DNA of 35,783 nucleotides from Ilumatobacteraceae bacterium (GTDB lineage: Bacteria > Actinomycetota > Acidimicrobiia > Acidimicrobiales > Ilumatobacteraceae). The position numbers were made by a program, and so were the translations under genes. Below, in pieces: positions 24,615 through 31,801 of the stretch; the first letter of the stretch is position 1, and each line of letters opens with the position of its first letter. The notes under the pieces were generated by a model, which was not told the origin of the DNA, did no database searches, and worked only from the letters and a program-made list of their open reading frames with translations. The stretch is taken from assembly GCA_017856815.1 (NCBI GenBank), contig JAFMEI010000005.1, positions 1 through 35,783 on the forward strand, in the 5' to 3' direction.

Positions 24615-25136
24615 TCAGGACTTCTTGGGCCGGTAAAAAATGACCAATTGGCCGATTCCGCCAAGCACTCCTACTGCTAGCGCAATCCAAAAACCAGTGA
24701 AGCCTGATGAATCAAAGATTCCGAGGGCATGGTCGATACTGGCTTGGCCACCGCCAAGGGTTCCCGTCGCTAGTGCGGCAACAATGATGGCACCGTTGTA
24801 CTCCCATCCACCCTTGGTAATCAGGTATCCCGATTTCCAGTGCGCGACGTATCCCGCAACAATCATGAGCCCAACCATCGCTGCCGATGAGAGCGGTGTT
24901 AGGAAACCCACAGCAAGAGCCAACCCACCAAAGATCTCGGTTCCAGCCGCAGCGCGGGCCTGCCACGCTGGATATTTCATACCAATTGAACCAAACCAGC
25001 CGGCGGTGCCCGCCAAGCCGCCTTGGCCGAACACCTTGTTATATCCGTGAACCACCATTGATAGGCCAAAGCCAACTCGAAGAATTAGGGATGCCAGATC
25101 CAGCGTGGAAAATGTTGATTCAGTTACAGCAAACAT
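24615..25136 (-). CDS. DoxX-family membrane protein
   Basis: 173 residues with four hydrophobic segments. The DoxX pattern LILRVGFGLSMVVHGYNKVFGQGG and the later GTEIFGGLALAVGFLTPL are clear. Family members are small integral membrane proteins, some tied to quinone oxidoreduction or redox stress; the role here is not determined. Its start is 18 bp from the divergent lipoprotein gene, and the two -10 candidates overlap. Confidence 0.9.
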   Translation of the reverse strand: MFAVTESTFSTLDLASLILRVGFGLSMVVHGYNKVFGQGGLAGTAGWFGSIGMKYPAWQARAAAGTEIFGGLALAVGFLTPLSSAAMVGLMIVAGYVAHWKSGYLITKGGWEYNGAIIVAALATGTLGGGQASIDHALGIFDSSGFTGFWIALAVGVLGGIGQLVIFYRPKKS

Positions 25137-25142
25137 GGCACC

Positions 25143-25149
25143 TACGCTA
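25143..25149. promoter_or_regulatory. Overlapping divergent -10 elements
   Basis: TACGCTA. On the plus strand TACGCT (25143-25148) is 6 nt before the lipoprotein GTG. On the minus strand TAGCGT (25144-25149) is 7 nt before the doxX ATG. Five bases are shared, and both transcripts would be leaderless. Confidence 0.5.
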
Positions 25150-25154
25150 GGCGG

Positions 25155-25889
25155 GTGCCCGCGGGAATCAATGCATTTCGTCGACTCTTTGTTTGTGGGC
25201 CTCTCGTATGTGTTCTGATCACGGCTTGCGGTACACCTGCAAGTGAATCGGCCTACTGCGTTCGATTGAAGTCAGCTCGTGCTCCGCTCGCTCATCTAGC
25301 GGCCACGACAGAACAACTCTCCACCGTAAGTGCTGGGGATGCGAGGGATGCCTTTGAAGCGGGAATCAAAGAACTTGAGTACTTAACCGAGCGAGCACCG
25401 ACCAGCATGAAGGATGAGATTGACACTGTTCGTAATGCGTATCGCGCCATCGCGATTGAATTAATTGCGCTTAATTGGGATACCGCGGCGTATGTTTCGT
25501 CTGATGCCGCAGAAGTGCAATTGGAATTGGTCACGGGGGGCAGCGTCAATCAGGCAATTGCTCGAATCGGGGTCGACTCAACTGAGCGGTGCAAATTTGA
25601 TATTGATTTCATGGCCGAAACGGCTGACACTCTGGTCACACTGCCGCAACCCCCGGTGCCAGATATCTCACAGCCTGATCTGTCGATTGAGCCTGTTGAA
25701 GGTGACAGTGCCACGATTGCACTTGGTCTAGTTATCGCCGATCGTTATGAGGCGCAAGTAACTGACCCTGAGGCACTTTGTTTGGGCACTGCGTTCAATG
25801 CAGCGACCGAGACGGGGTTGCTAGGAGAGTCTGAAATTGATTTGTTCTACCGACAGATATTCAAATTCTGCGGCATTGAAATCAACTGA
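25155..25889 (+). CDS. Hypothetical lipoprotein
   Basis: 244 residues, no family recognised. The signal sequence ends in the lipobox ITAC (Cys25). The mature part begins with a Cys-containing helical segment (ESAYCVRLKSARAPLAHL) and is mostly acidic and helical, with a Pro-rich linker near residue 165 (LPQPPVPDISQPDLS). Several Cys residues (CKFDID, ALCLGTAF, KFCGIEI) may form disulfides. GTG start with a TACGCT hexamer 6 nt upstream. Confidence 0.8.
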   Translation: MPAGINAFRRLFVCGPLVCVLITACGTPASESAYCVRLKSARAPLAHLAATTEQLSTVSAGDARDAFEAGIKELEYLTERAPTSMKDEIDTVRNAYRAIAIELIALNWDTAAYVSSDAAEVQLELVTGGSVNQAIARIGVDSTERCKFDIDFMAETADTLVTLPQPPVPDISQPDLSIEPVEGDSATIALGLVIADRYEAQVTDPEALCLGTAFNAATETGLLGESEIDLFYRQIFKFCGIEIN

Positions 25890-25930: not shown

Positions 25931-26608
25931 GTGGAAATTGTTCTCGTGCGTCACGCTGAACCGGAATGGGTTAAAGACGGAATCAACTATGACAACCCTC
26001 CGCTCACTGAGCGCGGGTTTAGGCAAGCTGAAATGCTCGCCGATTCATTGCGAGGCCAATCGTTTAGCGAATTTCATGTCTCCCCGCTCGTGCGAGCGCA
26101 GCAAACAGCAGCGCCATTGACCAGTGTTTTGTCTGCCAAGGTTGAGACTTCCAACTGGTTAGAAGAGATTCGTAGCGAAATTTGGCACGGTACTCCTGCT
26201 GAAAAGGCTGAGGAAGCGTTCAGAAAAGTGAGAACTCTTCCGTCTCAACAACGCTGGGTTGGACTCGAAGGTGGAGAGACGGTTCGCGATTTTGTTGACC
26301 GCATTCATCTGGGGGCCAGTGTCTTTCTCCAAGAGCACGGTATTTCGCGCATAGATTCAGATCTCCCGGTTTGGGATATTCAAGATGATCGTGGCGCAAT
26401 AATCCTCGTGGCACATGCGGGCACAAACAGCGTTGTGATCTCTCATCTTCTCGGCCTGGATACCGTGCCGTGGGAGTGGGATCGATTTGTGCTCGGCCAC
26501 ACCTCAGTCACACGCATTGAAGCGATGAAGTTGGGCGATGGCTACACCTTTTGCCTTTCAAAGCTCAGTGATGTCGAGCATTTGCCAAGCGGTATGCGCA
26601 CTCGTTGA
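25931..26608 (+). CDS. Histidine phosphatase (phosphoglycerate mutase-like)
   Basis: 225 residues. The phosphohistidine motif LVRHAEP is at the N-terminus, the second arginine is in SPLVRAQQTA, the acid is in LEGGETVRDF and the second histidine is in LVAHAGTNS. This is the broad-specificity histidine phosphatase pattern; the substrate cannot be assigned. Starts with GTG, which fits because the motif begins four residues in. Confidence 0.92.
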   Translation: MEIVLVRHAEPEWVKDGINYDNPPLTERGFRQAEMLADSLRGQSFSEFHVSPLVRAQQTAAPLTSVLSAKVETSNWLEEIRSEIWHGTPAEKAEEAFRKVRTLPSQQRWVGLEGGETVRDFVDRIHLGASVFLQEHGISRIDSDLPVWDIQDDRGAIILVAHAGTNSVVISHLLGLDTVPWEWDRFVLGHTSVTRIEAMKLGDGYTFCLSKLSDVEHLPSGMRTR

Positions 26609-29621: not shown

Positions 29622-30319
29622 TCTTCGTTCTCAAGGAATTGAAGAAGCGCATCGATGAAACCAAAATCTTCCGTGGTTGCAAAGTGGTCTACGCCTTTTA
29701 GGACTTTAAGACGTCCATTTGGAAAGGCTGCGGCAAGTCGATCTGCGGGATGAGCTTCATCCTTGTCCCCAATCACGACGAGCACGCGACCCTCAAAGTG
29801 CGCCAGCTGTTCTGGTTTGATGGGGGGTCTTTCTGGACGCATGAATATTGCGGCTAGGGCGTCAATATCGTTGCCATTTTGTTTGGCATAGTGGCCGAAT
29901 TGCCTTGCGTATTTGTCCTCTGGATCTGCTTGGCCCTTGATGCCGGCTGCAATTCGCTCGCGGTGGGTGCTCGGCTGAACTTCAAAGACCCCATTGCCGA
30001 TACCTGCCAGCACTATTGAATGAAATGGCTTTGGATCCTTCAGGATCGCGCCAAGCAGTGTGATTGCCCCCATCGAGAATCCAACTGCGTCAACATTCTC
30101 GTGTCCTGTGATGGCCTCATAGAGTCGATCCGTCATGTCGCCATAGGCTTCAGGTTCATGCGGCTTGGGAGCGGTTCCGTGTCCTAGAAGATCAACGCCG
30201 ATAACGGGTCTCCCAATATCGCGGACAAGCTGGGCAACTCCTGGGTTCTCCCAAGTGCTGTCAAACGAGCCGGCAAAGCCGTGAACCATTGCTACGGGAC
30301 GATTTTCGGCTGTCGACAT
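29618..30319 (-). CDS. Alpha/beta hydrolase
   Basis: 233 residues. It shows MVHGFAGS (oxyanion region), the nucleophile elbow GFSMGA (Ser82), the acid in VIGDKDEAHP and His in GVDHFATTEDF. Substrate unknown. Coupled to tsaC by an ATGA overlap. TACGGT lies 7 nt before the ATG. Confidence 0.9.
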   Translation of the reverse strand: MSTAENRPVAMVHGFAGSFDSTWENPGVAQLVRDIGRPVIGVDLLGHGTAPKPHEPEAYGDMTDRLYEAITGHENVDAVGFSMGAITLLGAILKDPKPFHSIVLAGIGNGVFEVQPSTHRERIAAGIKGQADPEDKYARQFGHYAKQNGNDIDALAAIFMRPERPPIKPEQLAHFEGRVLVVIGDKDEAHPADRLAAAFPNGRLKVLKGVDHFATTEDFGFIDALLQFLENEE

Positions 30320-30326
30320 GTCTGAA

Positions 30327-30332
30327 ACCGTA
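30327..30332 (-). promoter_or_regulatory. Candidate -10 of the alpha/beta hydrolase-tsaC unit
   Basis: Minus-strand TACGGT, 7 nt before ATG 30319; the 49-bp gap is shared with the divergent guaB1. Confidence 0.4.
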
Positions 30333-30353
30333 CCTTACGCGCGTCGTTAGGCG

Positions 30354-31801
<1,448 letters not shown>

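Follow-up and report, generated by a model that had tools for sequence, protein, structure and literature searches.

The 18 bp that separate the doxX gene from a divergently oriented putative lipoprotein gene in an Ilumatobacteraceae bacterium probably constitute a minimal bidirectional promoter, in which one symmetric −10 element would serve two leaderless mRNAs. The symmetry of this element, its spacing from both start codons, a genome-wide leaderless signal and a conserved doxX −10 are all directly observed. The relevant features of the window (the whole stretch of DNA analysed, 35,783 nucleotides) are given below, and a direct read of the sequence gives GGCACCTACGCTAGGCGG as the entire 18-bp intergenic gap.

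24615–25136, minus strand: doxX (PF07681; Pfam match, E 4.8e-21)
25134–25136, minus strand: doxX start codon (ATG); RNA predicted to begin at 25136 or 25137, from the spacing
25137–25154: the whole intergenic gap, 18 bp (direct read)
25143–25149: TACGCTA, symmetric heptamer and candidate shared −10 of the form TANNNTA (direct read; rarity in the genome sample)
25143–25148, plus strand: TACGCT, candidate −10 for the lipoprotein gene (GTG 6 nt on; 14th percentile)
25144–25149, minus strand: TAGCGT, candidate −10 for doxX (ATG 7 nt on; 85th percentile; TANNNT kept in relatives)
25155–25157, plus strand: GTG start of the lipoprotein gene; predicted RNA +1 at 25155, from the spacing
25155–25889, plus strand: putative lipoprotein gene, no Pfam family (lipobox LITAC, by eye)
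25166–25171, minus strand: TTGATT, possible but weak doxX −35 (16-bp spacer), within the lipoprotein gene (direct read)
25931–26608, plus strand: histidine-phosphatase-family gene (PF00300; Pfam match), downstream of the lipoprotein gene

At the heart of the gap, TANNNT can be read on both strands of the heptamer TACGCTA. Because TANNNTA is self-reverse-complementary at the positions that matter, TACGCT on the plus strand and TAGCGT on the minus strand overlap by five common bases (25144–25148), as the initial annotation had described. The last T of the −10 lies 6 nt from the start codon of the lipoprotein gene and 7 nt from that of doxX, and these spacings, together with the genome-wide TANNNT peak presented below, support the further claim of that annotation that two leaderless-type promoters are folded into 18 bp. 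The reciprocal −11/−7 relation of the Grainger-type 18-bp class is also present, as the A at 25144 and the T at 25148 serve both directions. For doxX there is a single candidate start, ATG 25136, and for the lipoprotein gene GTG 25155 is the sole ATG, GTG or TTG ahead of the lipobox. None of the Shine–Dalgarno cores GGAG, GAGG, AGGA and AAGG was found upstream of either start; AGGTG and AGGCGG beside the starts bear a faint Shine–Dalgarno resemblance, but are merely 2 and 0 nt away respectively. RNA folding of both predicted 5′ ends gave nothing special.

Similarity to TATAAT is low on both strands (three of six matches for TACGCT and likewise for TAGCGT), and a scan with the TATAAT/TTGACA consensus, which is uninformative here, called no promoter at 25137–25154. 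As a yardstick of strength we used the host genome's own leaderless TANNNT set, which we judged to be fairer than TATAAT, and on this scale TAGCGT stands at the 85th percentile whereas TACGCT reaches just the 14th. The −35 regions had been expected within the opposite genes; the positions agree with this and TTGATT is a possible match for doxX, whereas on the lipoprotein side a direct read of the sequence found no good −35. A T at −18, helpful and non-essential, is absent on both strands, which have G (plus) and C (minus) at this position. The weakness of TACGCT, the want of a good lipoprotein −35, the absent −18T and the lack of the overlap in all six syntenic relatives (see below) count against a bidirectional reading. 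In addition, the shared −10 is bracketed by the inverted repeats GGCACC/GGTGCC (25137–25142 and 25154–25159), nested within the outer inverted repeats TTGATTC/GAATCAA (25115–25121 and 25165–25171); the arrangement is possibly an operator, or chance.

The wider genome was surveyed for leaderless starts in a sample consisting of the window and 60 contigs (595 kb, including some N), using the first starts of 530 ORFs that were 100 aa or longer. Of these ORFs, 64 have a TANNNT ending 6 nt ahead of the start and 22 have one ending 7 nt ahead, against a background of approximately 2; the counts at 8 and 9 nt are 13 and 10, and most other distances give approximately 2. With the sample enlarged by ten contigs, the figures were 67/587 at 6 nt and 23/587 at 7 nt. 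Because of this excess at 6 nt, the host genome seems to use a bare −10 routinely for leaderless expression. The hexamer of the leaderless set resembles TAGCCT and is accompanied by hardly any −35 signal, and two higher-GC relatives display the same 6-nt peak in weaker form (4/153 and 11/160). An apparent avoidance of A at −6 in leaderless promoters (8/86) was dropped, since A is rarer still over all sampled TANNNT (3.7%).

Divergent pairs were then counted with alternative starts allowed, TANNNT at 6–9 nt on both sides and a separation of less than 150 bp. This yielded 24 doubly leaderless start pairs out of 93 divergent neighbours, compared with 1, 0 and 0 at spacings of 13–16, 18–21 and 24–27, and the doxX/lipoprotein pair is the tightest of the 24. 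Such pairs are fewer in the two higher-GC relatives, one of which has none among 38 divergent neighbours and the other 3 among 39.

Both the hexamer and its symmetric form are strongly avoided in this genome. The sample here was 665 kb (the window and contigs L067–L126 and L237–L246) read on both strands, including 42 kb of N, which raises all observed/expected ratios by approximately 6%. TA-N3-T occurs at 0.34 of expectation, against 1.03–1.23 for spacings of 0–2 and 4–12, and TA-N3-TA at 0.12, an approximately 8-fold avoidance that is near the square of 0.34. The TA-N3-T dip is seen in the two higher-GC relatives too, at 0.24 and 0.27 versus 0.53–0.77 at spacings of the same codon phase. Avoidance of this kind is what an actively promoting bare TANNNT would lead one to expect. 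The 41 occurrences of TANNNTA in the sample (6e-5 per bp) are sparsest in ORFs, at 0.038 per kb, whereas gaps between co-directional genes have 0.54 per kb and divergent gaps 0.92. Divergent gaps hold 10 sites in 10.8 kb versus 22 in 576 kb of ORFs, a 24-fold higher density (Fisher p 2e-10). The spacing-specific avoidance and this density thus make the gap heptamer a rare word placed where such words are retained. Selection against spurious −10 motifs is already known from the available text of PMC1939733; the terms TANNNT and ‘palindrom’ are absent from the main text of that paper. The avoidance offers an RNA-free and independent pointer to which −10 words act as promoters.

The divergent doxX/lipoprotein order was found in six relatives (L003, L007, L014, L045, L050 and L057), with start-to-start gaps of approximately 53–55 bp in four, 100 bp in one and 530 bp in one. 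Conservation of the hexamers in relatives that share this gene order, which the initial annotation had made its refutation test, holds for doxX, as all six have TANNNT at precisely 6 nt upstream of a doxX start. It fails on the lipoprotein side, where a strict TANNNT is found in L003 alone (TAGGGT at 6 nt), and for the overlapping −10 geometry, which would be expected of a conserved divergent regulatory promoter and is found in none of the six. On the lipoprotein side, L045, L050 and L057 carry, by eye, CAGACT or CAGAAT at the 6-nt position. L014 shows a Shine–Dalgarno-like AGGA at its likeliest start, and TANNNT also precedes, by 7 nt, a further in-frame ATG two codons downstream; L007 has none of these. 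Among all doxX relatives, TANNNT lies at 6–9 nt in 38 of 49 distinct doxX loci, compared with 1, 3, 1 and 3 of 49 at the control spacings of 2–5, 11–14, 15–18 and 20–23. The −10 fusion is therefore specific to the window's lineage among the seven loci compared. As the doxX −10 is conserved and the overlap is confined to this lineage, the ancestral state was probably a leaderless doxX promoter opposite a separate lipoprotein promoter; two separate leaderless promoters, with start codons approximately 53 bp apart in several relatives, would then probably have fused. In one other genome of the same genus, the gap region matched nothing at the DNA level. Its contig L043 has a doxX match of 31 residues near the contig end, the rest of which enters the opposite strand of the neighbouring gene, so that this genome offers no gap for comparison; the doxX fragment looks like an assembly artefact.

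Predicted fused pairs similar to doxX/lipoprotein recur in the family. We searched 101 family genomes for the pattern CAT-N5-6-TANNNTA-N5-6-ATG, which misses the window's own site (its plus-strand start is GTG), and counted the sites by hand; shifted spacings served as controls, a reversed pattern being rejected as unfair because it tests AT and not TA. Flanks of 3–4, 5–6, 7–8, 9–10 and 12–13 gave 27, 67, 53, 23 and 33 sites respectively, the 67 and the 23 being confirmed by a recount. ORF context was examined for flanks 5–6 and 9–10 only, and 21 of the 67 sites, versus 3 of the 23 controls, had flanking ORFs of 80 aa or more on both sides. Taken as proportions, these do not differ significantly (Fisher p 0.11); taken as counts, 21 versus 3 gives a p value of 0.00014, and with orthologous pairs merged by eye the comparison is 16 versus 3 (binomial p 0.002). 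Part of the 67 sites is chance or other palindromic operators, such as a repeated CATATG-type site. A glycosyltransferase-like gene (by eye) keeps the same partner and a fused site in three species (L205, L206 and L217), with differing inner three bases of the heptamer; a lipoprotein-like pair with a fused site is kept in two genera (L196 and L199), and one further pair in two species (L157 and L158).

The founding paper on bidirectional promoters is reportedly that of Warman, Grainger and colleagues in Nature Microbiology in 2021. In E. coli and Salmonella, the available text of PMC10268837 and PMC12825309 describes such promoters as having a common −10, reciprocal −7T/−11A and 18 bp between starts, often between divergent genes, and PMC12825309 gives the preferred distances between divergent start points as 18, 10 and 23 bp. 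The gap, with its predicted starts, has the geometry of the 18-bp class so described. Unlike those promoters, both RNAs here are predicted to be leaderless, with the gap consisting of promoter alone; the −10 is the actinobacterial TANNNT and not TATAAT-like, and the −18T that helps in E. coli is missing. Leaderless genes with a TA-like signal, as presented in the available portions of Zheng et al. 2011 (PMC3160421) and, for M. tuberculosis, Cortes et al. 2013 (PMC3898074), have TANNNT approximately 12 bp before an ATG or GTG start and little −35, and both sides of the gap are like them (6 and 7 nt from the last T); the genome-wide TANNNT peak agrees with these published signals as well. In those portions such genes are treated singly, whereas here one −10 would be common to two. 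The prpD/Rv1129c pair of M. tuberculosis, in the same available part of PMC3898074, is likewise divergent with both genes leaderless (here predicted), and its members rise together in starvation; its −10 elements are separate, the start points (1254630 and 1254510) being 120 bp apart, whereas ours is shared. Neither leaderless genes nor symmetric bidirectional promoters are new in themselves, and the gap joins these two separately studied facts. A literature search, with most subscription papers outside its scope, found no description of their fusion into a promoter-only gap.

In the mechanism that we propose, RNA polymerase holoenzyme would bind the TANNNTA −10 in either orientation, because the −7T of either strand is base-paired with the −11A of the other. 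From the sequence we infer two-way transcription from canonical start points predicted at 25155 (plus) and 25137 (minus), 18 bp apart. Both RNAs would start at, or within one base of, the start codon and be translated as leaderless mRNAs, making space for a ribosome-binding site unnecessary. Both genes would probably be served at a modest level, with doxX as the stronger side. Should both RNAs prove leaderless, the same 18 bp would be at once promoter and intergenic region, a near-minimal divergent control region.

It is possible, although rather unlikely, that doxX alone uses the shared −10, with TACGCT a mere consequence of the symmetry and the lipoprotein gene read, with a short leader, from a promoter inside doxX. 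This would suit a doxX −10 that is strong and conserved and a lipoprotein −10 that is weak, with a strict TANNNT in one of six syntenic relatives. However, TACGCT stands exactly 6 nt from the sole possible lipoprotein start, there is no usable Shine–Dalgarno sequence for a leadered lipoprotein RNA, and the consensus scan offered nearby just a weak promoter-like site (TTGATA-16-AAGAAT, 25058–25085). The CAGAAT or CAGACT seen by eye at 6 nt in three relatives also suggests a weak leaderless lipoprotein promoter.

We regard as very improbable a true either-or switch, i.e. regulatory mutual exclusion, perhaps through a factor acting on the flanking inverted repeats. The initial annotation had claimed mutually exclusive transcription, and steric exclusion of two polymerases does follow from the geometry of the overlapping −10s if both promoters work, yet it would last only while polymerase is bound. 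Functional exclusion at basal strength is unlikely by analogy with five E. coli bidirectional promoters, whose basal activity, in the available text of PMC12825309, is too low for competition, which appears only once one direction is activated. The GGCACC/GGTGCC repeats flanking the −10, with TTGATTC/GAATCAA further out, could be the target of such a factor, but a comparable 6-bp inverted repeat is present in approximately 3.7% of the window's 32-bp stretches, and the six syntenic relatives lack the overlap. Least credible of all is that both TANNNT strings are functionless and the genes expressed by other means: once one TANNNT is present the second needs only a single further base, but the 24 doubly leaderless pairs against 0–1 in controls, the strong avoidance of TANNNTA in the host genome and the conserved doxX −10 all argue against chance.

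Beyond the bidirectional promoter that we favour for this gap, we are evenly balanced on a wider proposition, namely that Ilumatobacteraceae, and probably other Acidimicrobiales, share a minimal divergent-promoter class with a symmetric TANNNTA in a 17–19-bp gap between the start codons of two leaderless genes. A bare TANNNT would be sufficient to start transcription, so that the genome would purge TANNNT to approximately one-third and its two-way form to approximately one-eighth to one-ninth, about the square, keeping the latter mainly between genes. For actinobacteria, the prediction would be that 17–19-bp divergent gaps with TANNNTA mark shared promoters.

The second-tightest doubly leaderless pair lies in the same window, with GTG 23458 (minus) and GTG 23482 (plus) separated by a gap of 23 bp; its −10 elements TACCCT and TAGCGT have TA in common, and by eye the minus-strand gene is esterase-like and the plus-strand gene acetyltransferase-like. 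This arrangement fits the 23-bp bidirectional promoter class, and the window seems to contain two of the three bidirectional arrangements already described (18 and 23 bp), as listed in the available text of PMC12825309. Another doubly leaderless divergent pair, at 30319–30369, has a gap of 49 bp with a TANNNTA inside it (TACCTTA at 30331).
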